A DNA stretch of 64,000 nucleotides from assembly GCF_000478585.1 (NCBI RefSeq), contig NZ_ARWI01000001.1:1364001-1428000 (forward strand). The letters run 5' to 3'. The notes under the pieces were generated by a model that was not told where the DNA came from, ran no database searches, and worked only from the letters and a program-made list of their open reading frames with translations. Origin of the DNA: Thiomicrorhabdus sp. Kp2 (GTDB taxonomy: Bacteria; Pseudomonadota; Gammaproteobacteria; Thiomicrospirales; Thiomicrospiraceae). Positions 15,984-39,160 of the stretch are shown here, in pieces. Positions within the stretch are counted from its first letter, which is position 1, and each line of letters starts with the position of its first letter. A program made the position numbers and the translations under genes.

Positions 15984-16349
15984 CTATTTATGGTTACTAA
16001 AATGATTGTAGACTATAGTTGCCGCGACACCGAAAGAAAAAGAAAAACCAGCAGAAATCCAACCTTCTATCTTATTCTGAAGAATATCAGTGCTTAATGA
16101 ATGAAGAATAAATCCATAAGAAATTAAAACCGAAAAAACAATAACAGCTACAATTAATGGGAAGAAATAGACAGCTCCAACTTTTATATTATTGATATGA
16201 TTGTTAAGCTTTGACTTTCCTATTATATGGTTAGTTTCAGCTTCCTGTTTTGCACCTAAAATATTCGGGTTTTGTTGTTCAATTTTATTATTAGCATCTT
16301 CTGGTTCAATAGAATTGATGCTATTTATTGAAATTTCATTATCAGTCAT
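15984..16349 (-). CDS. Small two-TM protein, putative Panacea-system toxin
   Basis: The 121-aa protein has a polar N-terminus (about 55 residues, Asn/Ile/Glu-rich) and two membrane segments at about 58-82 and 96-114. It overlaps the upstream Panacea-domain gene by 4 bp (TCAT on the plus strand), so the two are translationally coupled. Panacea-domain antitoxins are known to pair with very diverse toxins, including small membrane proteins. Assigning this as the toxin rests on that context; the protein itself has no family I recognise. Confidence 0.7.
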   Translation of the reverse strand: MTDNEISINSINSIEPEDANNKIEQQNPNILGAKQEAETNHIIGKSKLNNHINNIKVGAVYFFPLIVAVIVFSVLISYGFILHSLSTDILQNKIEGWISAGFSFSFGVAATIVYNHFSNHK

Positions 16350-16843
16350 ACAAGAAGGGTTTTAATAAATTCTTTATAGTATTCTTTAATGTCATCAGTT
16401 GGTATTTCTTTACCTAAAACGCCTTCTGAATAGTTCTTACTCCATGGAGTACCATCCTTATGAGTAAGTTGACGAAGCCCCCAACCAGAATAAGGTTTAT
16501 AAATCTCCCAAACCTTACTTAGGATAACCTGTGCATCGAAGTCATCTTGATCTACTTCAGGATGAGATGCTGAAGATGATAAATCGTCCCAAGCTATTGA
16601 CCGATTAGTGATAGGCGACTTTCGAAAGTGCTTAAACTCATGGTATAACGATGGAATCACTGGGCCATGTTGCCAAGCTTCAATCTTTTCATTAAATAAA
16701 GGCTCATTTTTTATAGCCAAGTACCAACCTTGAGCTATATAGACAAGCTTATTGAGCTTTAACTGCGTAACTTCTACTTTAGCCTCCAAGGCTTCTGAAA
16801 GAAAGTAGTTAGCCACATGTGACGCTGTATATTTTGAATTCAT
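16346..16843 (-). CDS. Panacea (DUF4065/SocA-like) domain protein, putative antitoxin
   Basis: This 165-aa protein has the family landmarks KLNKLVYIAQGWYLAI near the N-terminus and EAWQHGPVIPSLYHEF in the middle. A C-terminal WGLRQLTHKDGTPW segment follows, all typical of the Panacea domain found in SocA, GepA and many toxin-antitoxin antitoxins. It is the first gene of a two-gene operon with a small membrane protein. In such systems the Panacea protein neutralises its partner directly. Defence or stabilisation of the transposon is the likely role. Confidence 0.85.
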   Translation of the reverse strand: MNSKYTASHVANYFLSEALEAKVEVTQLKLNKLVYIAQGWYLAIKNEPLFNEKIEAWQHGPVIPSLYHEFKHFRKSPITNRSIAWDDLSSSASHPEVDQDDFDAQVILSKVWEIYKPYSGWGLRQLTHKDGTPWSKNYSEGVLGKEIPTDDIKEYYKEFIKTLLV

Positions 16844-18589: not shown

Positions 18590-19370
18590 GTTCATCGACT
18601 TATGCGCTTATGTACTGGGCTATGTTAATAGAAGTCTACTTACATCCAGATTCAGCATTGAGTCTGCGTATGCATCACGTGATATTAAAAAATATCAAGA
18701 AGAGACCTTTGAAAAACTCTCTTACAACACTTCTCTAAAGGCTTATGTACCTGTTGGTTGGTTTGAACCAACATTCAAACACACCTTTGAAGACGCTTTT
18801 TTATTGATTAGTGAAGGAGCACAAAAAATCCGTTTCATACCGAAGCTAGCCGAAACTCAGGTTGTTACTTCTATACCAGGAGTTGAACCTGATTTAAAAA
18901 TCATTGCACCGGTGTTGAGAACATTAAGTCGTGGGTTAAAAGTTGAGATAGAGTACATTTCTACTTCTTCAGGAGTGTCAACTAGACTGATTGCACCCCA
19001 TTCATTGATCGCGGCAGGTAACTTTAAATACGTCAGAGCCTTTGACCATAAAACTGCTGAATTCAGAGCCTTCAAACTGAATAGAATCGTTAATGCAAGA
19101 CCTACCTCTTGGAAAATTGGGAAAGAAATGAATAAAGATTCAGATCAGGAATGGAATAAAAAAGTGATCTTGAAACTTACTGCAAATAGGAACTTGAAGC
19201 ACAAAGAATCTATCGAATTCGATTTCGGGCTAATTAATGGCTATAAGGAGGTCAAAATTCGAAAGGCTCTAATCCCGTTCTTCCTTATGGATTGGAACAT
19301 TGCACCTCAAGAACATGAACACTTGCCAGCTACATTGTTCCCTCTCGAAGTTAAAAAAATAATACAATAA
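18570..19370 (+). pseudogene. CapW/BrxR-like WYL-domain regulator lacking a clear start codon
   Basis: From 18570 the open frame reads RYKERLKFIDLCAYVLGYVNRS then SRFSIESAYASRDIKKYQE, a winged-helix DNA-binding domain as in BrxR/CapW. A WYL domain follows (KVEIEYIS..., LIAPHSLI, KYVRAFD), then a C-terminal WCX-like part. These regulators repress CBASS, BREX and related defence operons. About 266 residues are present against a usual 280-300. No ATG, GTG or TTG lies in frame before the conserved helix, and a stop sits at 18567-18569. It is therefore 5'-truncated, or it uses an unusual start. The first conventional start in frame (TTG 18804) would delete the DNA-binding domain. Confidence 0.65.
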
Positions 19371-20009: not shown

Positions 20010-20999
20010 ATGGATTGGTTTAAAACCGCTCTTTGGCAACCAATAAAAAATCATATCGCCATTTCAATGATGCTATTTGGTATTTCTTTAATAGCTCTTG
20101 GAGTAATCGTCACGTACGAAAAGCTTGACTGGTTATCAAAACTTCTTCTTCACTCGGGAAGTGCCGCTCTCGGTGGTGGGGTATTTGCTGTCATCCTAAA
20201 ATCTGCCCAGTTTACTGAAATATTCCAAAAACATATTGCGACGGTTTTTTATGACCCGTTAAAAATTGATGATGAGATGCTGTTAGAACATCGTTGGATG
20301 GTCTTATCAGAGTCTTTATTACGCGGTACGCTACCAATTTCATATGAATCTGCCTCAGAGCGTATTTACAAACAGTTTTTTAATAAAGAACGCGACTATC
20401 ACTTTGAAAATTACCGTGCAGTTTTTGATATTGAGGTCGATGACGATGGAAACATGACAATTCATCAACTTACAAAAACTAATCTAATTATTTCTCCCCA
20501 TGCCGAAGATCCTATCTTAGTTCAAGATTTTTCTTTAAGTCAGGCTGAAAGTGCATCTATTGGCCATTTATACATTAATGGATCAGATACTGATGCATCT
20601 GGAAAGCCTCTTACAGAATATTACGAGCAAAGCTGCGATGATACTGATGAGACGTTCTTTAAGCTTAAATTGCCATTAAAAAATTGTTTAAAATCAGGAA
20701 GCAACCATCAAGATGCTTGCCTCGAGTTCGAGCGTAAGGTAATCACTCGTCAAAAAATTGATTCAGAGCCATATATGTTTGTAAATATCAGTCGATATAT
20801 AAAAGGAGCTCGTATTAGAGCGAGAGTTAGTTCTGGATTTGATGTTAAATTTAATCATTCACATATTGGGCGACAAGAGGAAAAAAGTGGTAAGATTGAT
20901 TCTGAAAACTTTAAAAGATGGACGTTGGCAGAAAAAGATGAGTTGATATTGCCTGGACAGGCTTATATAATTTTCGCGGTACCTGCTTCAGAAGCATAA
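20010..20999 (+). CDS. Hypothetical membrane protein with large soluble domain
   Basis: The 329-aa protein has two membrane segments (about 16-35 and 44-64) with a short loop. A soluble domain of about 260 residues, probably cytoplasmic, follows; it is rich in beta strands toward the end. No family is recognised. The 2-TM plus sensor/effector layout recalls membrane-anchored defence effectors, but no catalytic motif is evident. It has a weak ribosome site (AGGATAAAG) and is followed by a terminator about 100 bp downstream. Confidence 0.7.
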   Translation: MDWFKTALWQPIKNHIAISMMLFGISLIALGVIVTYEKLDWLSKLLLHSGSAALGGGVFAVILKSAQFTEIFQKHIATVFYDPLKIDDEMLLEHRWMVLSESLLRGTLPISYESASERIYKQFFNKERDYHFENYRAVFDIEVDDDGNMTIHQLTKTNLIISPHAEDPILVQDFSLSQAESASIGHLYINGSDTDASGKPLTEYYEQSCDDTDETFFKLKLPLKNCLKSGSNHQDACLEFERKVITRQKIDSEPYMFVNISRYIKGARIRARVSSGFDVKFNHSHIGRQEEKSGKIDSENFKRWTLAEKDELILPGQAYIIFAVPASEA

Positions 21000-22035: not shown

Positions 22036-22893
22036 ATGCAGCAAACAGTATTTATAAAACAGCAAAACGCATCATATTTGAAATTAGACTTGCCTTTTGA
22101 GACGCAAGAAATCATCCCAAATGTAAGCTGGGGAAGTGTTCTTGAGTTTCCAAGCATTGCTTATTGGGTATATAAAGTAATTGAAAGAAGAACCACTAAA
22201 ACTCAAATCAATTACAAATTAGGCAATTCATTACTAGAAGAAACTGGTGCCTGCCTATTAGGGGGGCATGGTATACCAGCAGAGATTGGGTTAGCCGCCT
22301 TTGAACATATAAAAGCCAACAAGGTTTTTAATGGACAAAATTATGATAGAGAGCATCTAACAAATCTTCTATCACGCCCTCTCCAGTTAAAAAATGGTCG
22401 AAGCGTGAAATACCGATTTGCCAAACAAAAAGCACAATACTTAGAAGATGCCATCAGAAAAATAAATTCATCAAAAGCTCCTGAAACCTCAGGTAAAGAA
22501 TTAAGAAATTGGCTTTTAGATATTAAAGGCATTGGCCCTAAAACTGCATCATGGATTGCAAGAAACTGGCTCAATGCCAACGATGTCGCGATACTAGATA
22601 TTCACATATTAAGAGCTGGAATATTAGCGGGCTTTTTCCCTGAAGACCTGAACGTTGAAAAAAACTATTTTGAGTTGGAAGAAATTTTTTTAAATGTTGC
22701 AAAAGCAATTAAAATAGATGCTTCAGAGCTAGATGCGGTCATTTGGTATGAAATGCAACGTTCAAAAACTGCATTACAACTATTGAATTCAAGGAAAATC
22801 AGGCAACCGAAAAAAGCAAAACGGGATATTGAAATGTCATTTTCGTTCACCTACCAGAGCAGCGCCGACCCCTATAAAGTCGCGATCATTTGA
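22036..22893 (+). CDS. OGG-type HhH-GPD DNA glycosylase-like protein
   Basis: The 285-aa protein has the helix-hairpin-helix LDIKGIGPKTASWIARN, with K169 aligned to the catalytic lysine of OGG1. D188 in AILDIHI aligns to the catalytic aspartate, so base excision with beta-lyase chemistry is plausible. The N-terminal domain differs from housekeeping Ogg/MutY. OGG-fold proteins of this type are known accessories of type IV CBASS next to QueC-like proteins. Its 3' end overlaps the SagB-like gene by 57 bp on the other strand, so it is convergent with, not cotranscribed with, the QueC operon. Confidence 0.85.
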   Translation: MQQTVFIKQQNASYLKLDLPFETQEIIPNVSWGSVLEFPSIAYWVYKVIERRTTKTQINYKLGNSLLEETGACLLGGHGIPAEIGLAAFEHIKANKVFNGQNYDREHLTNLLSRPLQLKNGRSVKYRFAKQKAQYLEDAIRKINSSKAPETSGKELRNWLLDIKGIGPKTASWIARNWLNANDVAILDIHILRAGILAGFFPEDLNVEKNYFELEEIFLNVAKAIKIDASELDAVIWYEMQRSKTALQLLNSRKIRQPKKAKRDIEMSFSFTYQSSADPYKVAII

Positions 22894-23493
22894 AATTTCA
22901 CAAGCCTGACTTCCTCCTAAACTACCTAAAGGGCAATACGACAAATCTAAATATTCTGCAACCAACGACTGTGTTGCTAAGATTGCCCCACTATCCCTGT
23001 ACGCCAGCTCCAACGGTGACTTATATTTAACCGCCAGCCTTGATAAATCACATACAAACCAAATGAGGGCAGCAGAATTTGCATCTATAACCATCTGGTA
23101 AGATTCTTGGATAAACTGATTAATACTCTCTGAGTTCAGCGAAATTAGCTCAGCAGAGTTTTCAATAGGATTATAGTGAAACCAGCTCTTATGCTGTGGC
23201 AACCAAAACACTATTTCAACTGAATGTAACCCGCCTGCTGAAATAACTGGTCTGTGCTGAACCTCATGCCCTAACTCTGATAAGCCAACAGTTAATGTTC
23301 TATTCGATAAGTAAAAAAGGTGTCCAATTCTCTGTAGATCAATACAGTCAAACCTGCGGTGAGTCTCTCTTGATTCTAGAACTTCAATAAAACCAGCATG
23401 ATTTCTTACCGGACTAGACAATGGATAAGAAACTGGTGAATTAAATTTATAAAACCGCCCAAAAAAGTCATCCAAAGCTTTATCTTCTCTCAT
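22837..23493 (-). CDS. SagB/nitroreductase-like FMN oxidoreductase
   Basis: This 218-aa protein fits the SagB/ThcOx branch of the nitroreductase fold: ESRETHRRF near the N-terminus (FMN phosphate), HRPVISAGGLHSVEIVFWL, then the helix AYRDSGAILATQSLVAEYL and LGSLGG. SagB enzymes oxidise azolines in peptide natural products; nitroreductase relatives reduce varied substrates. It overlaps the QueC-like gene by 14 bp, so it is the last gene of a four-gene operon. Its role with QueC and PfkB partners is unknown to me and is the most unusual part of the cassette. Confidence 0.78.
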   Translation of the reverse strand: MREDKALDDFFGRFYKFNSPVSYPLSSPVRNHAGFIEVLESRETHRRFDCIDLQRIGHLFYLSNRTLTVGLSELGHEVQHRPVISAGGLHSVEIVFWLPQHKSWFHYNPIENSAELISLNSESINQFIQESYQMVIDANSAALIWFVCDLSRLAVKYKSPLELAYRDSGAILATQSLVAEYLDLSYCPLGSLGGSQACEISNDRDFIGVGAALVGERK

Positions 23494-24082
23494 TTTTTAG
23501 TAAATACTGCATAGTCGATGAATGCTTATAACAACCTCTACATTGACTACAAGGAATATTCGATTTATGACACGAGTGAGCAATACCTAAAAGGCTTGCA
23601 GGAGCTCCGGCATTATCCAACAATTCAAACGCTGTTAAATCTATGGCTGGTACCGAAACCCTTAACCCACCTTCCTGATATTCAAGCAACTCACTTATTA
23701 AATTATAAAATTCTATGGTTCCATCACTATGATACTGATCAGACTTTACCGAACCTAGGATAATCTCTTGAACTCCCAATTCAAGAGCCTTTGATGCAGC
23801 CAACGTGATCAACAATTGATTTCTAAATGGCCACCAATCAGACTCCGGTGCAAAACGTGAAGACTCAGCATTCAGCAAATCACCACTACCAATTGCAGAA
23901 CAGTTTATAGAAATAACATGATGTTCAATACCTAATTCATCACATACTTTTCTGGCTGCACTAACTTCAGCCTCAGCACAAACCTGTCCATAATTAAGTG
24001 TTATTGCAGCATCAGGCCTAAGCCAATAAGCAAGAGCAATAGAATCTAAACCTCCCGAAAGCAATAAACATTTTTTTATCAT
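23480..24082 (-). CDS. QueC-like 7-deazaguanine synthase homologue
   Basis: QueC converts 7-carboxy-7-deazaguanine to preQ0 using ATP. This 200-aa homologue keeps the PP-loop S9-GGLDS14, the PFRNQLL motif and the four zinc cysteines C171, C178, C181 and C184. The substrate-loop region (GSVKSDQYHSDGT) differs from housekeeping QueC. No queD, queE or queF is nearby, so it is not the queuosine operon. QueC-like Cap9 of type IV CBASS is reported to attach a deazaguanine to a protein terminus, and this copy may do similar chemistry. The gap to the upstream gene is only 4 bp. Confidence 0.88.
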   Translation of the reverse strand: MIKKCLLLSGGLDSIALAYWLRPDAAITLNYGQVCAEAEVSAARKVCDELGIEHHVISINCSAIGSGDLLNAESSRFAPESDWWPFRNQLLITLAASKALELGVQEIILGSVKSDQYHSDGTIEFYNLISELLEYQEGGLRVSVPAIDLTAFELLDNAGAPASLLGIAHSCHKSNIPCSQCRGCYKHSSTMQYLLKNERR

Positions 24083-24086
24083 CTAC

Positions 24087-25331
24087 TCAGACCCATGACA
24101 CAGCATAAATAGAGGATGTAAAATCTTTATAAATAAAGCATCCGGTTCCCTCATACATTTTTAACTCTTCACTTGTAGAGTCTTCTGCAAAAATTACTAC
24201 TTTTTTACCAGCTTTAATTGCATATCCAACTTCAAACAAAGTTCCCGGATCTCTACCATCAAAAATGGCGTATAAAACATCACATTCTTCAATTCCTTGA
24301 ATATCTTTTTCAACCACCTTTTCTGCAGAGCCTATTCCAACATCATGGTAGGGAGAAAACACATCAAATCCGGCGTTTTGTAAATGAATCCTGGTTTCAT
24401 TAATCATCCACATCTGACTCAAGCTAAAAAAAGGACCCGCTAGGTAAACATTTAACGGCTCTGTAGATTGTTGCAAACACGGTAAACTGCTATATTGCTT
24501 CACATCCATTCGCATTGGATAAGCTGATGAGTCACAATAAAACGCTGTTGATGCAGATGCATTAACAACCGCCTCAATTAAAGACAACTCTTTACAAGCC
24601 CAAAAATATGTAAAAGATGATGAAAATATATCTCCTGAACCTATGGGGAAGACATTTTTCGTAATAAACGGGGAAATCCACTTCGAGATTTTGTCAATCG
24701 AAGAATAACAAAAAGCTCCTTTTGTTCCGCTTTTAATAACTACCGCATAAGCGCCCTCTTCATTTAGTAGCCATTCAGCCAAAATCCTAACATCTACTTC
24801 TTTTTTCCCTTCTACGCGCTCGTACAACAACTTCGCTTCATTAGAATTAAGGATAATAACCAAAGAGCCAAAATTGCCTTTAAGCTCTTTATAGAGTTTT
24901 GGATTTTTTGAATCCTGAGGGTCATATACAACTTTTCCATGCCCTGTAACAACTGGATTAGCTTCAATCATGCCAAAAACAAGCGCATGAACACTGGGGC
25001 TATCAGCATCCACACAGAAATCACCACTCTTCAGAATATTTGGATAAATCTCGGGCTTTGATAATGGATGAAAATAATAAAATGCATAAGTGTTCTCAGC
25101 GGGAGTAAACTCACACGAAATCTCATCCATGAAAAAAGTTGATTTAACGGGGTCGATATCAGATTCATTTAGAAGAGAATGAAGACATACTTCTAACGTT
25201 ACACCGCCTTCATCCGACCTCTTTAAACTGGACAAAACCTTACAAGCTCTACCTGCTGAGCCTAACGTTTGATTATGAGAAGGCCAATCACACAACTCTT
25301 TATAACAACCTCCTACAACATTAATTTGCAT
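24087..25331 (-). CDS. PfkB-family kinase fused to nucleoside deoxyribosyltransferase domain
   Basis: The 414-aa protein has two domains. Residues 1-285 form a ribokinase/PfkB-like domain, with GSAGRAC near the start and the catalytic GSGD (D234) in PIGSGDIFSSSF. Residues 293-414 form a nucleoside 2-deoxyribosyltransferase-like domain: NVYLAGPFF, VFSPYHDVG, CDVLYAIFDGRDPGT and FEVGYA with the nucleophile E367. This suggests phosphorylation of a (deoxy)ribonucleoside and cleavage or exchange of its base. The fusion sits between a QueC-like gene and a 125-aa unknown with gaps of 4 and 10 bp, so a joint nucleobase pathway is likely. Confidence 0.85.
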   Translation of the reverse strand: MQINVVGGCYKELCDWPSHNQTLGSAGRACKVLSSLKRSDEGGVTLEVCLHSLLNESDIDPVKSTFFMDEISCEFTPAENTYAFYYFHPLSKPEIYPNILKSGDFCVDADSPSVHALVFGMIEANPVVTGHGKVVYDPQDSKNPKLYKELKGNFGSLVIILNSNEAKLLYERVEGKKEVDVRILAEWLLNEEGAYAVVIKSGTKGAFCYSSIDKISKWISPFITKNVFPIGSGDIFSSSFTYFWACKELSLIEAVVNASASTAFYCDSSAYPMRMDVKQYSSLPCLQQSTEPLNVYLAGPFFSLSQMWMINETRIHLQNAGFDVFSPYHDVGIGSAEKVVEKDIQGIEECDVLYAIFDGRDPGTLFEVGYAIKAGKKVVIFAEDSTSEELKMYEGTGCFIYKDFTSSIYAVSWV

Positions 25332-25341
25332 AAAATTAATC

Positions 25342-25719
25342 CTATATTGATTTAACTAATATTTTTATTAATGATCCAGAGATTTGAAGCACTATTGCCT
25401 GATACATGGTATTTTTTTTCATAATGCATTGAGTTATAAACTCAACTTCTGCTGAAGGCGTTAAACCTCCAATACGTTGCTTACTGCTATTTGTTAGCTG
25501 AACTACTGCAAATCCAGGCACAGACTGAATTAAATCCACAGTAAATACATCTCCAGCTGAAATAGAGCTCAACATACTCGGGTCAGGACTTCCAACCGTT
25601 GTCTCATATTCGAATGAAGAACAGGAATCATCATTTACATCTCCCTCTGAAATTCCACGTCCAACCCTTGTGTTTCCTGTACCTGTTGAGACAAAACCAT
25701 CGCTTCCACTTCCAGACAT
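25342..25719 (-). CDS. Unknown 125-aa protein with Gly/Ser-rich N-terminus
   Basis: First gene of the QueC-like operon, 10 bp ahead of the kinase fusion. The N-terminal 35 residues are flexible and glycine/serine-rich (MSGSGSDGFVSTGTGNTRV). The rest (about 50-125) is beta-rich with repeated isoleucine/valine strands ending KILVKSI, perhaps an OB- or SH3-like barrel. No catalytic motif and no known family. ATG 25719 is preceded by AAGGATAGGA. Because QueC-like enzymes can modify protein N-termini, this exposed terminus is a candidate substrate, but that is speculation. Confidence 0.7.
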   Translation of the reverse strand: MSGSGSDGFVSTGTGNTRVGRGISEGDVNDDSCSSFEYETTVGSPDPSMLSSISAGDVFTVDLIQSVPGFAVVQLTNSSKQRIGGLTPSAEVEFITQCIMKKNTMYQAIVLQISGSLIKILVKSI

Positions 25720-26268: not shown

Positions 26269-27186
26269 TCAATTAACATGTCGATATTCGTAGTAACCTG
26301 GATTAGCTATACATTCATCATATATACAGGTGCGGCAGCTAGCTTGTGAAAACTTAATCAACTTCATAGACAATGACGATTTATCTAACACACCACATGC
26401 CACCTCTATCTCTTTATGATATTTTGGCCAATATTTTTGAAATAGCCTTTTTTCATTTTTCTTCAAATGCTCATAGACATGGTTTAATAAATATCTCTGT
26501 CGCATTTCCCAACGTGAACTGTAATTTTTCCCAAGAATTTTTTTTGCATGTTTTGCCTGAGACACATAAATGATGAAATCACTAAATGCATTAAAAAAAC
26601 ATGGTGCATAAATAGGGTAGTCAAACGTATGGTCTTTTAAATAATGACTGAGATAAGATTCAGCAGGCTGTTTTGCCGACTTGGGAAGTTTTCCTCTTAA
26701 AACCAACATTAATTGTTGGGTTGTTTTCGATCTGTTTTCTGCATGCAAGTAGTAAAGAGGCTTACCATGCTTTTGACAACTATCACTATTAAACCAAGAT
26801 TCTTCTATTAACCCATAACCAAGTTCTTTAATGTGCTCTTTTATACAAATATCACAAAAACTAACTCTAACTGTTTTTTGCAGTCTATTCATTGACCAAT
26901 AAAAATGGTCTTTCACATTGAAAAAGTACTTAATATCATTTCTAAAACTTAAATCATAAGAAAACATTTTTGTAGCGGTAGAAATAACACCAATATTGAC
27001 CAACTTATCAAAAACAATTCTCTCCTCAAGAGAAGAATATAAATTCAAATCTGACGAGATTATTGTTGGATTTGACTTCCACCCTCCTTTTACAGTCAAA
27101 ATATTTGAATAATCAGAAATCCCATTTACAGACTGGCTCCGAAATAAATAACTATGAATCAACTCATTTTCTTGTATCTTTAACAT
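26269..27186 (-). CDS. Second, short TniQ-like targeting protein
   Basis: The 305-aa protein opens like TniQ (ENELIHSYLFRSQSVNG) and has the family zinc finger: FCDICIKEHIKELGYG followed by WFNSDSCQKHGKPLYYL. A second cysteine cluster (CRTCIYDEC) lies at the C-terminus. It is shorter than the adjacent TnsD-like protein and clearly diverged from it. In Tn7-like elements an extra TniQ protein usually serves another targeting route; here it may replace TnsE. It is separated from tnsD by 282 bp without an evident gene. Confidence 0.8.
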   Translation of the reverse strand: MLKIQENELIHSYLFRSQSVNGISDYSNILTVKGGWKSNPTIISSDLNLYSSLEERIVFDKLVNIGVISTATKMFSYDLSFRNDIKYFFNVKDHFYWSMNRLQKTVRVSFCDICIKEHIKELGYGLIEESWFNSDSCQKHGKPLYYLHAENRSKTTQQLMLVLRGKLPKSAKQPAESYLSHYLKDHTFDYPIYAPCFFNAFSDFIIYVSQAKHAKKILGKNYSSRWEMRQRYLLNHVYEHLKKNEKRLFQKYWPKYHKEIEVACGVLDKSSLSMKLIKFSQASCRTCIYDECIANPGYYEYRHVN

Positions 27187-27468
27187 AGAGGTTTAAAGGT
27201 TTAATCGTTGTATATATTTAAGAGAATAAAATGGCGGCACCTTCAAATTCTGGACTTCTTCGCCTATTCTTGGTTCCAGACTTTTTAGGCCTATGATTTT
27301 ATAAAATTAGTGTTGCTATTTACTACCCAATATATTCAATGAATTAAAGCTTACTCCCTCCTAGAAAGGAGCTAAAATCGAAAAAAAACATGTCAAATAT
27401 TGTTTGAAGATTAGAGTCTTAAAACTATCTGCTACTTTGCGTATATAATCCAACATCCCAATGATAGC

Positions 27469-28875
27469 CTAACTTAATCGCGACCGTTTCCAGCTGTCTT
27501 TAGCGGGTATTTTGGGTTTTAAAGCTTTGGGAAGTACACCATCTAACCATAATCTTTCGTATCTGTATAACCAAAAAAATGCTGCACTATGCCTCTCTTT
27601 TATTTGCTGACGAATCCAGCTTGGATGATTATTCACTGCTCTTAGAATTTCAACTTTATACCATCTGCGTTTTGATTCAAATTTACATTTTTTTCTATAC
27701 TCAACCAATCCTTTCTCCGATGAAATGAGCATTTCAATAGTACCTATTGAAACCCCAAAACAATTTGCAATAATTCGCCGATGAAAGCCTTTCCATGCCA
27801 TCATTAATGCAGACGCTTTATCCAATTTTGTTATACTTATTGACTCTTTTAAAACATCAATATCATTTAATCCTGCTAGGCGCTTTAAATAAGAAACACT
27901 TTTTCCTGTATCTCTACTAGCCTCCGCCAAAGTTACTCCTTTTTTAAGGATTTCAATGCAAACCTTTTCAGAAGATGCTGAGCTCTCAGTTAACGTCTGT
28001 AACTTATCAAAATCTAGAGATTTCTGAGGGTGGTGTTCTAAGAAAAAGCTAAACAAAAGATACTTAAAGGGGTGTTGTGCAGAGCCTGGTATAAGCAGAT
28101 TGGTTAAATAACGATAATCCTCTTCACTTTTAGGCAAAAGGTCTTGATGATTGAAGTCAATTGTTTGGACAAAATCAAAAAAATCCTTACATAATAACTT
28201 TCTTCTTACTTGACCATATCTCGTAATATATCCAGTACAAATCATCTTCTGTTTAAGTTTATCTAAATCAAATTGAATTTGTTTATCTGTTAGATTTTGT
28301 AAAAAAGTGAAACAGAACTGTGAAAACTCTCCATGTTTTTCATTACAAAACGACGATTCTGATGGCTCAGGCAAAAAACCTTTTTTTATATGAGGCCGCT
28401 CAGGTAAATTAACTTCGATTAATCGAACTCTATGCGCCGGACAGCATTCCATCCCCGGTAGTTGATGGATTCTATGCCAATAGGTAACCCCAAAATTATG
28501 AGCATCTTCATAAGCACATGCTGGACAAAAATTAATTGTTACCTTTTTAGTTTCTCTAAAATTAGATAAACAACTATGCCTGAATGCGAGAGCACCGTCA
28601 TTTTTCAATAAGGATTGATATATTTTTAAGCCTGAATCGGGCTTAAAATACATGAAAAGAGAGCCCAAGGTTTGATACCTAAACAATTCATAAGGCTCAT
28701 CCCCTGAAATGTTCGCAATTTCAGTTAATCCAACAGTTATAAAGGGGTGAATACTAAGCCGAGGGTTATTAAAAAACTGTTTTAAGTACTCTTTTTCATT
28801 CAGCCCTAGAATCGCTTGATGGCGTATCAACCTACTATATAAAGTTTCATCGGTAAGCTGCTTAGGAAAAGACAC
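27469..28875 (-). CDS. tnsD: TnsD/TniQ site-specific targeting protein
   Basis: The 468-aa protein begins PKQLTDETLYSRLIRHQAILG, the TniQ entry helix, and has the zinc motif FCPACAYED...YWHRIHQLPG...CCPAH. C-terminal helix-turn-helix regions (TLAEASRDTGKSVSYLKRLAG and a following repeat) are typical of TnsD, which binds the attachment site in the host gene and recruits TnsC. Its length is close to TnsD of Tn7. From the insertion point it should recognise the 3' end of the YhiN-like gene. It lies 15 bp after tnsC. Confidence 0.9.
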   Translation of the reverse strand: MSFPKQLTDETLYSRLIRHQAILGLNEKEYLKQFFNNPRLSIHPFITVGLTEIANISGDEPYELFRYQTLGSLFMYFKPDSGLKIYQSLLKNDGALAFRHSCLSNFRETKKVTINFCPACAYEDAHNFGVTYWHRIHQLPGMECCPAHRVRLIEVNLPERPHIKKGFLPEPSESSFCNEKHGEFSQFCFTFLQNLTDKQIQFDLDKLKQKMICTGYITRYGQVRRKLLCKDFFDFVQTIDFNHQDLLPKSEEDYRYLTNLLIPGSAQHPFKYLLFSFFLEHHPQKSLDFDKLQTLTESSASSEKVCIEILKKGVTLAEASRDTGKSVSYLKRLAGLNDIDVLKESISITKLDKASALMMAWKGFHRRIIANCFGVSIGTIEMLISSEKGLVEYRKKCKFESKRRWYKVEILRAVNNHPSWIRQQIKERHSAAFFWLYRYERLWLDGVLPKALKPKIPAKDSWKRSRLS

Positions 28876-28890
28876 TCGTACTTCTGCCTT

Positions 28891-30321
28891 TTAGCCAAAC
28901 TTATCAAGAGGGTCATCAAGAAGTAAATCATTCTGACGCAGATAATCAAGAGAGTCTTCTTGATCAACTGCTTTCCTTAAACTATCAGGATCTTTGACTC
29001 GTTCTATCAATGCTATATCTTCTATTAACTCCCTGAGTTTAGTTTCAAATTCAGGATGTTGCACTCTAGTAATATCTGCGATAAATTTCTTTTTTTCTTT
29101 TGATGCTTCTTGTTTAACTTCTGCTTGTCTATTAATAGCTGATTTTTTGTTTCGTCTTGGTAATAAGTTTTGTTGTCTAAGCTCTATAACTTCCGCCGTT
29201 TTTGATGACAATCCACAAGAAGTAGCATAAGCTTGTTCCAAAACAGCTTCAGTAATTCTTTCATCACCTGAACCAATTACAAGCCTCTGAGCGTCTCTAT
29301 ATATTCTGTGTGCCAAATCTAAGTTACCAACAGATAACTCAAACAATTTATTATTTAAGTCATCAGTCAAATCAGTTGTTACATTTGTCCAATGTAAGTC
29401 CCACAACTCATGAACAAAATAATCCCATCCTTGACTATCTCTCTTCAAAGGTTCCATTTCGAAATAACCACCACTTTCAGCTCTTCTTGCAGCCTTCAAA
29501 GTTTTAGCAAGTGTTTTGTCAAAAGGAGGATTCGCGCAAAACAAAAGAGGCACTCCTAGTTTATTAACTAAGCTATGTAGAAAGTTTAATAAATTATTTT
29601 CACCACCTGTTCGTTTAAACACGAGTCTTTGCATTTCATCAATGACCAACAACCCTAAAAAACTTGACTTAATTTTTTGCTCAATTTGCCTCATCAACTT
29701 AGGAATGGTTGGCTCAGGTTTTGTAACCTCACCTAAAGCTGAATCAATCATCGATAAGATTTCTTCACACAGCTCTCTTACACTTGAGTTATTTGGACAA
29801 TCAACTTTTATCCAAACAACTTGGTGTGTAAATTCCATTTTCTGCCCTTGGTAGATATCGTGTTCGATGATTTGAGGAAAGTAGTTCAGCAGTTGTTCCA
29901 ACATGGAAGTTTTTCCAACTCCACTTTCTCCCTTTAAAGTGATGCTATCTGCTTTAGGCTCAAAAAAACCCGTCCGAGGTTCTATTTCAGGCCGTTCATC
30001 CACTGGATAATGTAAAAACTGAGCTGTCGTCGGTGTGAATGGGTTCTTACTTGAATAACCTGCTTTTATAGCCGTTTCAATTGCTCTAAAGCAATCATAA
30101 TAAATAGGAAGTGGCTGTCGTAATGATTTAAGTCTCTGAGTATATTCTTCCCTGACAAGAGGATCAGAGTGATACCTAATTTCTTCATCAACTTCAGGAT
30201 AGTAGGCAAAGAATTCCATTAAATCTTTCGCACTTTGCTTTTGTGGCAAGCCTTCAATAAAAGGGTTACCTTGATGCTCAGGAAGTATCGCTTTTGTATA
30301 TAGTGCCTTAACCTTTTTCAT
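28891..30321 (-). CDS. tnsC: TnsC AAA+ regulator of transposition
   Basis: TnsC forms ATP-dependent rings on DNA that connect the targeting protein to the TnsAB transposase. The 476-aa protein has Walker A GESGVGKT (131-138), Walker B LLVIDEMQRLV and a long charged C-terminal tail of about 100 residues. I chose ATG 30321, preceded by GAGGTG, over a start 57 bp upstream that lies inside tnsB. It begins 10 bp after the tnsB stop. Confidence 0.93.
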   Translation of the reverse strand: MKKVKALYTKAILPEHQGNPFIEGLPQKQSAKDLMEFFAYYPEVDEEIRYHSDPLVREEYTQRLKSLRQPLPIYYDCFRAIETAIKAGYSSKNPFTPTTAQFLHYPVDERPEIEPRTGFFEPKADSITLKGESGVGKTSMLEQLLNYFPQIIEHDIYQGQKMEFTHQVVWIKVDCPNNSSVRELCEEILSMIDSALGEVTKPEPTIPKLMRQIEQKIKSSFLGLLVIDEMQRLVFKRTGGENNLLNFLHSLVNKLGVPLLFCANPPFDKTLAKTLKAARRAESGGYFEMEPLKRDSQGWDYFVHELWDLHWTNVTTDLTDDLNNKLFELSVGNLDLAHRIYRDAQRLVIGSGDERITEAVLEQAYATSCGLSSKTAEVIELRQQNLLPRRNKKSAINRQAEVKQEASKEKKKFIADITRVQHPEFETKLRELIEDIALIERVKDPDSLRKAVDQEDSLDYLRQNDLLLDDPLDKFG

Positions 30322-30331
30322 ATAAAGCACC

Positions 30332-32446
30332 TCACTTTTTCTTCCTACGTGGCAGATAAATAACTCGGTCATTATCACGACTTGTGTCTATTGGACCTTT
30401 AGATACCTGGCTATCATTAACTTCAGATACTTGATGAACCGTTTTTAACAACTCTTCTTTACGGTTTTGTTTGATACCAGATGAGTCAACTGATTTTCGT
30501 TTACCAATCTTTTTTAGTCTATTTTTACCAATAGATTCTTGTCGGGTTCTATTCGAATCAAAATCCGAATCGACATTTTCAGAAATATTCTTTACTTTTT
30601 TGTCCTGTAACCAATCTTGAACAAAATCAACGTCGGTCATTGAGCTACCTTCATATATGGAACTTCTGTTCGTCAAATCACACCTAATAAAATTAGATGT
30701 TTTATCAAATCGAACATAAATAAAATCTGAGGTGTTTTCATTTATCCTTGCTTCAAGCTTCCATCGGCCATGAACTCTCGCAACACTAGCAAGATTTTCA
30801 CTAATCAATTTATCGTTGCTATAGTACATGTCATTGTAAAAAATACCGTTTCTAGTAAGACTAGCGGTATCTTCTGGATAAATTTGTCCAATTACATCAT
30901 CACTATTTGCTTGCTTTAGCGCATGTTGATGATTATTTATATGAATTTTCCAAAAGTTTAACGGTGTTGGAGCTAGATCATTTTTAATTAATAAGTCATC
31001 TACCGTTGCCAAACTGTCATAAATGGTTTTGTTTATCTCCAATACTGCGAGGATTAATTCCTTAGTGAATTCATTGAGAGTATAAACGGCTCGACTTTTA
31101 GGATTTGCTTCCCCTCTGACCGTCTGCCTACCTCTAGTCGTTCCAAGTAAATCATGGATTACTTTGCCATTTAATAATCCAAAACGCCTTTCCACCATCG
31201 ATTTGAAATCTCCTCTGTATGGAGGAGCAAATTGAAGCTCAGTAAAGGGAACTACGGTTTGTTGAGGCTTAAGACCAATCATTTCTCCGTTATCACACAT
31301 CAACCTAAGCGGAATGTGATGACAAGGCCATTCAGCATCTACGATATCAACACCATAACTTCTGCAATATTCAATTTTAGGTAAAAAAGCATTTGCCAAA
31401 GCAAGCCTTGCAGCTCTCCAAGAGGCATAAAAGAGTGACACATTTAACCCCACTATCATGCCACTGGCTCTATCAACAATGGAATAAATCGTAGGTCGAC
31501 CGAGAACAGAATCCGAACGGAATTTTGAAACTATATGCACATCTGCCACTGTTGCATCCAATTCAAAACAACTACCTGGAACTTTCCACCCATCTTTAAC
31601 ACTACCAATCACTGCTCTATTTTTTAAATTCTCAGTGTGCTTTGAATTTCTTTTTTTAGTAATTTCGTCTTTAGTGAACAGTTGTCTTGTCCAGTAACTG
31701 AACTGCCGGAAACTTGGCACACATGGAGCTCTATTCTTTAACTTTGCGGACTTTTTTTCTTCATAAAAGTGCTTTGTTAAAAAGTCGCTGTAAACTCTCT
31801 TTAAAGCAGGTCCATTATCAATTAAGTAGCGTTTTTTGAGGAAAGATTTTATGTGCTGCTTATCTATTTCTTTAAGAACATATTTTTCCGATGGCGCAAT
31901 TGCGAGAGTTCTAGGTTGTTTAGGGGCGCCTAAAGAAGAGTCTTTCGCTACTCGAGTTTTTCCTGGAGCTCCACTATTTTGGTAGAATGGAAGCAGTGCA
32001 TTTGATGACTGACCAAACCTCCAATAACGAGTCAGTAAACGAGCTAGTCTTTTACGGTCAGTTCCAACTTGCTTTACATGCTCTACAATTCTTGAAGACT
32101 TCTTGTTTTTGGCATATTCATAAACAAACGAATGATCTTCAATTAAGTCTTTAATCAAAGAAAAATTCTTTTCTTTAGTCTTCAGTTCTTCAGCTGAAAT
32201 TTCAGACTCCACCTTCTGCATGAAGTTTGGTAGTTCGAAGTTAGATTTAACAATGGTCCTATCTGAGACAGCTATTTGAAACACATCTAATGAGAAGCAT
32301 AAAGGCTTAACCTCCGTCCTATCATTAACGATTGGAAATAACACTACTTCATTCGTCTGTGGAATAATATCGAGCACCCGATACAAACCTTCGCCCAAAC
32401 CCAGAACACCTTTAACTTTCCATACACTATTTCCAAGAATTGGCAT
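30332..32446 (-). CDS. tnsB: TnsB transposase (DDE)
   Basis: TnsB binds the transposon ends and cuts and joins the 3' ends. The 704-aa protein has an N-terminal DNA-binding region and a retroviral-type integrase core: D297 (FELDATVADVH), D385 (LMCDNGEM) and E419 (SMVERRFG), a spacing of 34. The C-terminal basic tail (RRKKK) is the expected TnsC contact. It overlaps tnsA by 20 bp. The length agrees with Tn7 TnsB (702 aa). Confidence 0.95.
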   Translation of the reverse strand: MPILGNSVWKVKGVLGLGEGLYRVLDIIPQTNEVVLFPIVNDRTEVKPLCFSLDVFQIAVSDRTIVKSNFELPNFMQKVESEISAEELKTKEKNFSLIKDLIEDHSFVYEYAKNKKSSRIVEHVKQVGTDRKRLARLLTRYWRFGQSSNALLPFYQNSGAPGKTRVAKDSSLGAPKQPRTLAIAPSEKYVLKEIDKQHIKSFLKKRYLIDNGPALKRVYSDFLTKHFYEEKKSAKLKNRAPCVPSFRQFSYWTRQLFTKDEITKKRNSKHTENLKNRAVIGSVKDGWKVPGSCFELDATVADVHIVSKFRSDSVLGRPTIYSIVDRASGMIVGLNVSLFYASWRAARLALANAFLPKIEYCRSYGVDIVDAEWPCHHIPLRLMCDNGEMIGLKPQQTVVPFTELQFAPPYRGDFKSMVERRFGLLNGKVIHDLLGTTRGRQTVRGEANPKSRAVYTLNEFTKELILAVLEINKTIYDSLATVDDLLIKNDLAPTPLNFWKIHINNHQHALKQANSDDVIGQIYPEDTASLTRNGIFYNDMYYSNDKLISENLASVARVHGRWKLEARINENTSDFIYVRFDKTSNFIRCDLTNRSSIYEGSSMTDVDFVQDWLQDKKVKNISENVDSDFDSNRTRQESIGKNRLKKIGKRKSVDSSGIKQNRKEELLKTVHQVSEVNDSQVSKGPIDTSRDNDRVIYLPRRKKK

Positions 32447-33248
32447 ATTTTACCTCCGCTAGAGAAACAAGAGATTGAATTTCAATTATTACAGAACTCT
32501 CGATTTCATAGTCCAATCGTATTAATACCATCTTTTGTGCAATTAAAGTTCTTAACAACTCCAGACCTTGTCCACATTCAATGTTTAATAACCGTTCAAA
32601 CTTATCAACCAAGTCTTTTTTCAAAAATCGACCTGTATTTAGAATCCCAATTGCGTCTCTCAGAATCGAATCATCAAAGACTTCCTGTTGCCTAATTGAA
32701 TGCGTGGCCCAATTGATATTTTTGCTCTGTATTTTTGCTCTTTTATTACTAGTAAACACCCAAAACTTAATACCTTGTAACTCCCACCAAACCCTTTCTA
32801 TCTCTATCTTTTCAAGATTACGCTGACTAAGCATATCTTCTGGCTTTACAGACACCGCTTCATAAACGGTTTCATTATTAATCCGTCTAGTAATCAAAAA
32901 ATCAGTAGTTAAAACAATTGGGTCTTTAGAGAGTGGATTTTTTGGATGCTCAATACCTAGTATTGAAGAAATATGTAGAGAAAAGGGTAAGGGGATTAAC
33001 GGAAACTGCTCACGGATATCTATTACTGAATCACTGAACTCCAATAAATAGAATAGGTCAGTTTCGAGAGAGGATAGAGTATGGTGAACACGCTTAGTTT
33101 TTAACCCCCAAATTTCAGACCTAATACCTGTAGACGGGACATCTTGCACCCTTAGCCAGGGCTTGTAATCCTTGCCCGATCCTAGCCCATACTTATTTTT
33201 CAATGCACGATCAAAATCTTTATTTGATTGAAGTTTTCTGCGAGCCAT
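32427..33248 (-). CDS. tnsA: TnsA endonuclease
   Basis: TnsA cuts the 5' ends, making transposition cut-and-paste. The 273-aa protein has the restriction-endonuclease-like catalytic set E62 (SLETDLFY), D116 (LTTDFLIT) and K135 in EAVSVKP, matching E63, D114 and K132 of Tn7 TnsA. ATG 33248 has AGGTG upstream; the GTG at 33257 lies inside that site. Transcription of tnsABCD starts near the right end, and the three right-end TnsB sites could let TnsB repress its own operon, as in Tn7. Confidence 0.95.
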   Translation of the reverse strand: MARRKLQSNKDFDRALKNKYGLGSGKDYKPWLRVQDVPSTGIRSEIWGLKTKRVHHTLSSLETDLFYLLEFSDSVIDIREQFPLIPLPFSLHISSILGIEHPKNPLSKDPIVLTTDFLITRRINNETVYEAVSVKPEDMLSQRNLEKIEIERVWWELQGIKFWVFTSNKRAKIQSKNINWATHSIRQQEVFDDSILRDAIGILNTGRFLKKDLVDKFERLLNIECGQGLELLRTLIAQKMVLIRLDYEIESSVIIEIQSLVSLAEVKYANSWK

Positions 33249-33299
33249 AGGATTCACCTATTAAGGATGAGAGTTATATAACTTTACCTCGTGCAGAGT

Positions 33300-33381: not shown

Positions 33382-33386
33382 ACATC
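33382..33386. repeat. Target-site duplication, right
   Basis: ACATC, identical to 12743-12747. It overlaps the TGA stop codon of the flavoprotein gene (33385-33387 on the minus strand), so insertion left that reading frame whole. Confidence 0.93.
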
Positions 33387-34572
33387 AAACAGCCAAACCA
33401 CAGGCCACGCCAGACGCCCATGCCCACTGGAAGTTGTAGCCACCTAAATGCCCTGTTACGTCTAATACTTCGCCAATAAAATACAGGCCTGGTTGTTTAT
33501 TGCTTTCAAAGGTTTTAGAAGAGATTTCATCGGTATCTACCCCGCCTAAAGTTACTTCTGCTTTATCATAACCTGCTGTGTCACTTGGGTAAATTGTCCA
33601 ATTCTCAAGGTTCTCTGTATATTCAATCAATGCGTCATCGGTTAGGTTTGAGAGTTGATTTTCAATCGGAAACCATTCTAACCAGGCCTGGGTAAATCGT
33701 TTTGGCCAATACAAGTTCAGCCATTTAGAAATACTTTCGCCCGATTGCTTAAGTTGTTTTAACTCATCCAAAATAACCAGGCCTGGTAACAGGTTGATAT
33801 GGATGGGTTTACCTATTTGCCAGTAATTAGAAACCTGCAAAATACCTGGGCCACTTAAACCATTATGGGTAAATAAAATCGCTTCTTGAAACGATTGTTT
33901 ACCTGCCGATACCGTTACATCTAACGCCAAACCACTTAACGCTGAAATGCGTTGCAACCATTTATCTTCAAACACCAAAGGTACCAGGCCTGGTGAAGTG
34001 TTAATAACATTTAAGCCAAACTGCTGAGCAATCTCATAACCCAAACCTGTGGCTTTGAGTTTTGGAAAAGACAAAGCACCCGTAGCCACCACTAATTTTG
34101 CTGTGGTAAACACACCCTCAGAGGTTTGGACTTGATACATTTCATTAATATAATCCAGCTTAATCATTGAGCAGTTGGTTTTAACCTCTACTCCAGCCCA
34201 ATCGGCCTCTGTGCGTAAAATCTGAATTAAATCGGAGGCTCGTTCAGCACAAAATAGTTTACCGAGCTCTCTCTGTTCAAACGCTAAGCCATGACGCTCG
34301 ACCAACTCAATAAAAGCACTCGAAGGGTAACGAGAAAGCGCTGATTTTACAAAGTGCGGGTTTTGGCAAATGTAGTTATTCGGTGAAACATCTAGATTGG
34401 TAAAGTTGCATTTACCGCCCCCAGAAATACGAATTTTAGCGGCCGCTTTAGGTGCGTGATCTATCACTAAAACCGATTTACCCTGATAACCTGCGGTGGC
34501 AGCACACATTAGCCCTGAAGCCCCTGCTCCGAGAATAATGACATCATACTGTGTTGGCTTATTTTGAGACAT
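33385..34572 (-). CDS. HI0933/YhiN-family FAD-dependent oxidoreductase; transposon target gene
   Basis: The 395-aa flavoprotein has the FAD-binding GAGASGLM near the N-terminus, the family motif GGGKCNFTN, and the C-terminal GEVLDVTGHLGGYNFQWAW. It belongs to the BaiN/YhiN/HI0933 family of poorly defined oxidoreductases. ATG 34572 is preferred over an upstream TTG. The Tn7-like element sits 3 bp past its stop codon, so the coding sequence is intact but its original terminator region has been displaced 20 kb away. Four CAGGCCTG palindromes lie inside the gene, one of the highest densities in the window. Confidence 0.92.
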   Translation of the reverse strand: MSQNKPTQYDVIILGAGASGLMCAATAGYQGKSVLVIDHAPKAAAKIRISGGGKCNFTNLDVSPNNYICQNPHFVKSALSRYPSSAFIELVERHGLAFEQRELGKLFCAERASDLIQILRTEADWAGVEVKTNCSMIKLDYINEMYQVQTSEGVFTTAKLVVATGALSFPKLKATGLGYEIAQQFGLNVINTSPGLVPLVFEDKWLQRISALSGLALDVTVSAGKQSFQEAILFTHNGLSGPGILQVSNYWQIGKPIHINLLPGLVILDELKQLKQSGESISKWLNLYWPKRFTQAWLEWFPIENQLSNLTDDALIEYTENLENWTIYPSDTAGYDKAEVTLGGVDTDEISSKTFESNKQPGLYFIGEVLDVTGHLGGYNFQWAWASGVACGLAV

Positions 34573-34642
34573 AGAGAAATGGGCTTTTACTAACTTGATC
34601 AAATAAAACGTTTAATGAAGGGGGTTCAATATCGTCAGGCCA

Positions 34643-38257: not shown

Positions 38258-39160
38258 ATGAAAAATATTGTTCTGTTTTTCGGCTTACTTTCTTTTTTTG
38301 CCGATGCTAATGCGGCCGCACCATCACTTAAAAACACCATTATAAGTATAGAAAAACAGAGCCACGGTAAAATTGGTGTTGCGGTACTAAGCACGCAAAC
38401 CCAACAATACTGGAGTTACCGTGGTAATGAACGTTTTGCGCTAATGAGTACCTTTAAAACCCTTGCCTGCGCCAAAATGCTGGCTGATTCTGACCACAAT
38501 ATCCTAAACAAACAACAAACCGCTTTAGTGGATAAAACCAAAATGATTCCTTGGTCACCTATTACCGAACAGTATATTGGTAAACAAATGACACTTGAAA
38601 AGTTGTGTGAAGCCGCCATGCTCAACAGCGACAATACGGCAATTAATCTTGTTTTATCTCATATTGGCGGCCCTGCAGCGGTAACAAAGTATTTACAACA
38701 AAATGGCGACTCTGTTACCCGCATTGATAGAATTGAACCTGAATTAAATACCGCTTTTCTGAATGACCCAAGAGATACATCCACACCTTTAAGCATGGTA
38801 AATACACTGCATAAACTCCTTTATGGCAGCTTGCTATCTAATGCGTCTAAAGAGCAATTAAAAAATTGGATGATGAATAACCAAGTATCTGACGCTTTAT
38901 TACGTTCAATCCTACCCAGCAACCTTTTTATTGCCGACCGAACGGGAGCCGGCAATAACGGTTCAAGAGGTATTACGGCAGTCATTTGGGGAAAAGAAAA
39001 ACAACCACTGATAATAAGTATTTACCTAACGCAAACTACGTTATCCATACAAGAGCGAGATAAAGTGATTGTTAAAATTGGTGAGAGGATTTTGCAGAAA
39101 TATGGTTTTATACAGACCAAAGACGAATTTAATGCCCTTAATTTGCAAAAAGCGCATTAA
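38258..39160 (+). CDS. Class A beta-lactamase with RTG motif
   Basis: This periplasmic serine beta-lactamase (300 aa) has a signal peptide (1-19, ANA cleavage) and the class A motifs S64-TF-K67, S124-DN126 and EPELN (E160 for the deacylating glutamate). R228-TG230 stands in place of the usual KTG. RTG is the pattern of CARB/PSE carbenicillinases, so penicillinase activity is the likely inference. It lies in the chromosomal backbone 5 bp after thiD, not in the transposon, so it seems a resident gene. Confidence 0.92.
   Translation: MKNIVLFFGLLSFFADANAAAPSLKNTIISIEKQSHGKIGVAVLSTQTQQYWSYRGNERFALMSTFKTLACAKMLADSDHNILNKQQTALVDKTKMIPWSPITEQYIGKQMTLEKLCEAAMLNSDNTAINLVLSHIGGPAAVTKYLQQNGDSVTRIDRIEPELNTAFLNDPRDTSTPLSMVNTLHKLLYGSLLSNASKEQLKNWMMNNQVSDALLRSILPSNLFIADRTGAGNNGSRGITAVIWGKEKQPLIISIYLTQTTLSIQERDKVIVKIGERILQKYGFIQTKDEFNALNLQKAH

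Follow-up and report, generated by a model that had tools for sequence, protein, structure and literature searches.

A scattered mobile cassette of a QueC-like ligase, a PfkB-deoxyribosyltransferase fusion and a small tagged protein: a candidate for base-to-protein conjugation

What might a QueC-like ligase, a nucleoside-processing fusion enzyme, a flavin oxidase, a DNA glycosylase and a small protein accomplish together? This question is raised by a five-gene cassette at positions 22036–25719 of the window, a 64,000-nucleotide stretch of the Thiomicrorhabdus sp. Kp2 genome (assembly GCF_000478585.1, contig NZ_ARWI01000001.1, positions 1,364,001 to 1,428,000). Four genes lie on the minus strand: a small protein of 125 amino acids (25342–25719); a 414-residue PfkB-type kinase fused to a nucleoside 2-deoxyribosyltransferase (NDT) domain (24087–25331; PF05014 at 1e-16, and PF00294 at 2e-7 with a match confined to the C-terminal half); a 200-residue QueC-like ATP-dependent ligase (23480–24082; PF06508 at 2e-23); and a 218-residue SagB-like flavin oxidase (22837–23493; TIGR03605 at 2e-16, 60 bits, below the cut-off of 78.4). 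The fifth gene, on the plus strand and convergent to the others, encodes a 285-residue OGG-type HhH glycosylase/lyase (22036–22893; PF22175 Ogg-HhH at 1.5e-16). The genes are tightly packed, with gaps of 10 and 4 bp, an overlap of 14 bp between QueC and SagB, and a tail-to-tail overlap of 57 bp between SagB and OGG. The open reading frame (ORF) coordinates and family matches bear out the five genes, the gaps and the 14-bp overlap described in the original prediction.

The cassette is a real, scattered mobile module in bacteria and some archaea. We consider it probable that it is a defence-type system in which a 7-deazaguanine-like base becomes joined to the N-terminus of the small protein. A 2025 report described conjugation of a base to a protein in one immune system (PMC11996544), and such conjugation has been proposed for a second, Qat (PMC13279940). 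The CD-NTase of type IV CBASS (cyclic-oligonucleotide-based anti-phage signalling system) begins MGGS, and Cap9 modifies its Gly2 (PMC13279940; PMC11996544); QatB begins MGTS on a disordered tail modelled inside QatC, with G2D abolishing defence (PMC13279940).

The ligase belongs to a described group, cluster 4 of the QueC proteins, for which the relevant section of PMC13329287 (July 2026) gives the Zn motif CH(x)5CxxCxGCxK, a PF00294-PF05014 neighbour at about 89% and helix-turn-helix (HTH) neighbours. The window QueC was assigned to it by the motif and the PfkB-NDT neighbour rather than by rebuilding the network of that study. Purine salvage is proposed there, whereas conjugation is proposed here. 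That section mentions no small protein, SagB, OGG, TIR-TGT lineage or protein substrate, and the words “ogg” and “sagb” each occur 0 times in the text; the open-licence PMC literature (excluding subscription papers and outside preprints) yielded nothing on the small protein, on SagB or OGG in this setting, or on the TIR-TGT lineage. The candidate new system of the original prediction is thus new only in part: the QueC/PfkB-NDT pairing is already in PMC13329287, while the small protein, its tag and the TIR-TGT lineage are added here.

Spread of the cassette and the tag of its small protein

The original prediction proposed a search for co-occurrence of the PfkB-NDT fusion with QueC-like and SagB-like proteins, and such a conserved neighbourhood exists. 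In all, 35 main-lineage loci combine the small protein with PfkB-NDT and cluster-4 QueC, and OGG is present in 27 and SagB in 21 of them; repeat views of one contig were removed, and partner presence was judged within the stretches examined. Because loci were found via PfkB-NDT, QueC or OGG, and “main” means that all three core genes are present, the co-occurrence in 35 of 35 is partly the result of selection. The preservation of this trio at 35 loci in distant genomes is not due to chance, and all PfkB-NDT loci without the small protein belong to the second lineage described below. Near-duplicates remain among the loci (L013/L020, L015/L018 and L050/L052). A Kiloniella contig matches the window cassette gene for gene, with all five in identical order and orientation, at 35–57% identity.

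The cassette is thinly distributed. A tblastn search with PfkB-NDT matched 74 of 72,556 plasmid records, 37 of which cover at least 80% of the query; 23 of these 37 were examined, and most of the others looked like duplicates. PfkB-NDT was present in 3 of 369 genomes of a class sample and 7 of 398 of a phylum sample, both of which include the window's own genome, and one of the seven belongs to the second lineage. In IMG/VR, a PfkB-NDT profile built from two sequences detected no relative; wider profiles yielded 8 (PfkB-NDT), 7 (QueC) and 10 (OGG) loci. No phage record covers 80% of PfkB-NDT, and 10 records have partial NDT matches; QueC matches 51 phage records, with ten among the matches listed being 27–28% identical and mostly annotated as QueC-like or amidotransferases. 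The OGG family also occurs without a visible cassette, on the OGG-only contigs L063, L064 and L066. Mirror-tree rank correlations among the five families were all positive (0.29–0.65, after dropping repeat contig views and the near-duplicates L018, L020 and L052) and were not used as support, since there was no unrelated control gene for comparison.

The small protein is most conserved at its beginning and in a Cys-containing core. A start of the form M[SGTC][GS], usually MSG, was found in 37 of 38 homologues, including proteins from Pseudomonadota, a cyanobacterium and haloarchaea; in the window it reads MSGSGS (25702–25719, minus strand). At position 2, Ser occurs in 32 proteins, Gly in 4 and Cys and Thr in 1 each, and 36 of the 38 have Gly at position 3. 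The entropy at these positions is 0.83 and 0.35 bits, respectively, versus 2.9–3.3 bits at positions 8–16, and only 14 of 390 other ORFs (at least 200 residues, read from the first ATG) begin in this way. The annotated start agrees with the chosen one in 12 of 12 plasmid records that annotate the small protein, and also in Escherichia coli KMi029; the gene was missed by annotation in three further records (L013, L018 and L020). The Kiloniella gene has its corresponding start at a TTG preceded by a GGAGG stretch.

Between residue 2 and the core Cys lie 15–43 residues with a mean Gly+Ser content of 46% (35 proteins). This stretch varies freely, while the core residues C33, G84 and C98 are present in 41 of 41 core matches. 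The composition and length suggest a flexible tail, and removal of Met from MSGSGS would be expected to expose Ser-Gly. The small protein had no PDB match up to E=5, and no Pfam family was matched by more than one of 25 members; its likeness to CD-NTase and QatB lies in the tag and not in a fold. The original prediction had suggested that a base might be attached to a protein, and the conserved tag of the 125-residue protein is strong sequence evidence for this suggestion.

Variant forms of the small protein were also observed. Those of haloarchaea (L012 5363–5998, L021 4910–5998 and L022 5339–5998) contain two core domains per chain, and that of L021 also has a very long acidic linker. At two loci (L048 7781–9330 and L026 434–2070), a second small protein (MSGMNP.. 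and MSGIKL.., respectively) is paired with a second PfkB-NDT; both second copies depart from the NDT motif, and the kinase Asp is lost in L048 only and kept in L026.

A second lineage and the enzymes of the cassette

If the tag is the target of QueC, a QueC system without the small protein should bear the tag on another protein. Six loci (L023, L024, L027, L028, L046 and L053) contain a more distant PfkB-NDT and QueC without the small protein, and in all six a TIR protein directly after QueC begins MGGG or MGGS. The annotated starts were used, and they agree in L023, L024, L027 and L028. At L023, the only one of seven translated ORFs with such a start was this TIR protein. A conserved small-residue tag on an adjacent partner protein is therefore found in both lineages (37 of 38 small proteins and 6 of 6 TIR proteins).

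Our own profiles found a TIR-TGT fusion, a SLATT protein and OGG in all six of these loci; the fusion of L024 is split over two frames and hence broken. The Pfam TGT model, run on two of the fusions, gave 1.6e-9 for L023 (over the cut-off) and 6e-5 for L028 (under the cut-off), and the PADLOC TGT model gave 9e-21 for L023. Blocks comprising the PfkB with degenerate NDT, TIR-TGT, OGG, QueC and tagged TIR protein, with SLATT nearby, span L023 7252–11830, L028 7195–10358, L046 3184–7744 and L053 7229–11833. The TIR lineage looks like a defence system of its own.

Of the 37 PfkB-NDT proteins outside the TIR lineage, 35 have an intact NDT motif; all 6 within the lineage have lost it. Our TIR-TGT profile picked up no TGT-family gene in the main lineage. 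The NDT site is thus retained where no TGT is visible and has disappeared where there is a TGT-family protein, an indication that NDT and TGT perform a related job on the base.

The catalytic residues named in the original prediction are well conserved. In the PfkB-NDT proteins outside the TIR lineage, D234 of the GxGD motif and the NDT glutamate E367 are each present in 36 of 37, and C171 of QueC lies inside the Zn motif. K169 of OGG, together with D188 and H190, is present in 39 of 39 proteins. SGGxDS is present in 39 of the 42 QueC rows, PxRN in 40 and the Zn motif in 41, and the window protein has both the ATP motif and the Zn site. The QueC profile matches canonical QueC (2pg3, 3e-22) and Cap9 (9nto, 5e-20) in the PDB, and a GSG(D/E)L(A/V)G-type stretch is common to cassette QueC and Cap9; the match to 9nto supports the kinship with type IV CBASS that had been pointed out beforehand. 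In the base site of Cap9 and QueC, as described in PMC13279940, a Tyr stacks on the base and an Asp reads the guanine edge; QatC lacks both. In the cassette enzymes, 35 of 36 main QueC rows and 6 of 6 TIR rows retain the Asp, and in the TIR rows the Tyr is replaced by Phe (FPD).

The relatives of the SagB-like protein in the PDB are the oxidases CyaGox and BmdC. The gene is optional, as it was not found in 14 of the 35 main loci, one of which is incomplete. Position 2 of the small protein is Ser or Thr in 21 of 21 loci with SagB versus 9 of 14 without it (Fisher p=0.006, with near-duplicates and other related loci kept, and with L047, whose contig ends inside QueC, scored as SagB-negative). 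This association would fit chemistry on the side-chain hydroxyl.

Pfam and PADLOC-type scans of ten window proteins around the cassette found no CD-NTase or cyclic-nucleotide effector and no TGT-family protein (Cap10), as the original prediction had stated, and likewise no queD or queE, no YcaO or exporter, and no QatA KAP ATPase or QatD TatD nuclease. Membership of type IV CBASS was rejected on the first three absences. An OGG-type glycosylase is also a partner in type IV CBASS. The cassette shares with that system a ligase of about 200 residues with SGGxDS, PxRN and the Zn motif, and a partner with a Gly/Ser N-terminal tag; it differs in having PfkB-NDT instead of TGT, a small Cys-containing protein instead of CD-NTase as the tagged partner, an optional SagB, and HxD instead of YxD in the base site.

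The qatABCD system likewise combines a QueC-family enzyme with a tail-bearing protein that has a conserved N-terminal tag. In contrast to the cassette enzyme, QatC, in the account of PMC13279940, is a protein of about 400 residues that has extensions and uses Thr/Thr at the base site; QatB is all-helical, and no PfkB-NDT, OGG or SagB genes are described for Qat. Membership was rejected on the size of QueC and on the absence of QatA and QatD. Canonical queuosine QueC shares the fold family and the ATP motifs, but the cassette enzyme has its YPD motif replaced and lacks the queD/queE neighbourhood, and the host has a separate canonical copy.

Conjugation and its alternatives

Conjugation would proceed as follows. 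Removal of Met would expose Ser-Gly (Thr, Cys or Gly at the first position elsewhere) on the tail of the small protein. By analogy with Cap9 and its CD-NTase, the QueC-like enzyme would use ATP to activate a guanine-like base at its carboxylate, the likeliest base being 7-carboxy-7-deazaguanine (CDG), and join it to the N-terminus of the tail. We further infer that the NDT domain, in place of the TGT-family protein of type IV CBASS, would bind the tail-borne base and add or exchange (deoxy)ribose, that the PfkB domain would phosphorylate this sugar, and that SagB, where present, may mature the Ser- or Thr-linked adduct. OGG, Dam, dGTPase, Mrr or TIR proteins could be nucleic-acid-facing partners or effectors.

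CDG is the leading candidate substrate. The window's genome, a single contig of 2.73 Mb, encodes elsewhere a separate canonical QueC, QueD and a QueE-like protein, the match of the last being below the family cut-off. Of eight carrier genomes, six gave hits for queD and for queE-like genes, although some of these hits are weak.

Several observations weigh against conjugation on the Cap9 model. The stacking Tyr is replaced by His (HxD for YxD) in 35 of 36 main QueC rows, the remaining row being incomplete, and a pattern search did not match the GSG stretch in 5 of 36 main rows or in the TIR lineage. The tag residue is mostly Ser rather than Gly; the start codons of the small proteins were chosen motif-first, and one protein (L026 5594–5995) lacks the M[SGTC][GS] start. 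The NDT/TGT pattern is that of one lineage and so represents one or few independent events, and the link between SagB and residue 2 also rests on few. The other two of the eight carrier genomes, G545 with the main cassette and G428 with the TIR lineage, both rated 100% complete, show no queD, queE or canonical QueC (E<=0.001); CDG would therefore have to be imported there, or the base is another. As regards a defence role, PADLOC, run on the ten window proteins, returned only QueC, TniQ and WYL-type models and thus recognised one of the five cassette proteins, QueC.

An elaboration of the conjugation scheme, which we regard as unlikely, is that the cassette makes a protein-nucleotide whose dGMP-like head on the small protein could jam phage DNA synthesis. 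QueC would join a 7-deazaguanine-type base to the N-terminal Ser, and a second, amide-activating turn of QueC, which normally serves the amide-to-nitrile half-reaction, would allow the Ser hydroxyl to close to an oxazoline. SagB would oxidise the oxazoline to an oxazole, NDT would move deoxyribose from a nucleoside to the base, and PfkB would phosphorylate it. In such a scheme, dGTPase would lower the competing dGTP and OGG would cut the adduct out of host DNA.

In nucleobase or purine salvage, as proposed for cluster 4 in PMC13329287, the product of the QueC-like enzyme and PfkB-NDT would be a free modified nucleoside, newly made or recovered, and the small protein would be a chaperone or sensor. 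NDT and PfkB are classic salvage families, and Vut_1-type transporters, annotated for queuosine salvage, occur at two loci, the near-identical plasmid copies L013 and L020. In contrast, salvage would lead one to expect neither the extreme N-terminal tag of the small protein, nor a TIR lineage with its own tagged TIR protein, nor defence genes near some of the copies, nor a patchy, mobile spread. A QueC of its own is, moreover, already encoded by the window's host. We consider salvage improbable as the function of the cassette.

We think it quite unlikely that the system is directed at DNA, with a modified deoxynucleotide put into or cut from it, OGG cutting and the small protein binding DNA. 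The invariant catalytic Lys and Asp of OGG are in its favour, as are the neighbours: Dam adjoins OGG in 9 loci (one being an OGG/SagB fragment), dGTPase is present in 5 loci and Mrr in 3, all raw counts from profiles seeded with annotated neighbours. However, OGG was not found in 8 of the 35 main loci (one of them incomplete), the main lineage shows no TGT-family gene by our profile, and the N-terminal tag would be without a role.

The presence of SagB and a Ser/Gly tail brought to mind the maturation of a ribosomally synthesised and post-translationally modified peptide (RiPP). Clusters of the thiazole/oxazole-modified microcin type with SagB are defined by a YcaO cyclodehydratase and a precursor with a conserved leader. 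That SagB and QueC form azoles on the tail as a precursor, yielding a toxin or signal, is highly improbable: the oxidase relatives of SagB, the Ser/Gly content and the occurrence of SagB only with Ser or Thr at position 2 agree with it, but the conservation pattern is reversed (first residues and C-terminal core kept, Ser/Gly stretch free), YcaO and an exporter were not found among the ten window proteins, and SagB was not found in 14 of the 35 main loci.

Mobile context and significance

The window cassette is carried by a Tn7-like element of 20.6 kb (12748–33381) with a 25-bp perfect terminal inverted repeat, further repeat copies internally, and a flanking 5-bp target duplication, ACATC. 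A gap of 3 bp separates the element from an HI0933-like gene (33385–34602), the 3′ end of which faces it. The transposition genes form a block on the minus strand (26269–33257): a second TniQ adjoining the cassette (26269–27186, a weak match), TnsD/TniQ (27469–28875), TnsC/TniB (28891–30378), an ORF without a Pfam match in the position of TnsB (30332–32446) and TnsA (32427–33257), with TnsA, TnsC and TnsD/TniQ recognised by Pfam. The original prediction regarded the place next to the tns genes as typical of defence cargo. Among the ten window proteins scanned, PADLOC found only the three kinds of model named above.

Other genes in the element encode a SocA/Panacea-type antitoxin-like protein (16346–16843), a WYL-domain protein (18804–19370) and a 329-residue protein with no Pfam match and, by eye, a hydrophobic, membrane-like start (20010–20999), which may be extra cargo. 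Outside the element lies a gene for a beta-lactamase-family enzyme (38258–39160; PF13354).

Close relatives of the cassette are found in E. coli. At least 10 of 5,426 complete genomes carry it at 97.6–100% identity to a Citrobacter plasmid copy, in a search sensitive to close relatives only, and three copies were examined in detail. In KMi029, a three-recombinase element adjoining ssb1 carries it along with GajA (1.5e-256), GajB (3e-151), Dam and dGTPase (3e-146). AJ1 and ABWA45 have no annotated Gabija pair and contain response-regulator genes in that place; the ABWA45 copy adjoins an ssb among phage-type genes. The E. coli loci (L080 2564–21011, L081 and L082) share an element with three recombinase-type genes beside ssb whose cargo varies by strain, with Gabija in one and a large protein plus response regulators in two. 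At another locus, L009, a neighbour matches ThsB (TIR) at 2e-163. The Dam, dGTPase and Mrr genes counted above belong to the same company, and the neighbour-seeded profiles also found an HTH regulator in 12 loci. Such company, counted without a baseline, is guilt by association and not proof of defence. A defence function of the cassette is likely.

Our study brings in two further lineages, each with its own candidate substrate: a novel small Cys-containing protein in one and a TIR protein in the other. It also gives a new reading of a published QueC cluster that PMC13329287 files under purine salvage. The alternative use of NDT and TGT may serve as a natural experiment on the fate of the base after its attachment, which bears on CBASS and Qat. 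Since the cassette also occurs in E. coli, the idea can be put to the test using standard phages, knock-outs and mass spectrometry. If base-to-protein conjugation is true of it, the cassette would be a further example of a recently discovered chemistry of bacterial immunity.

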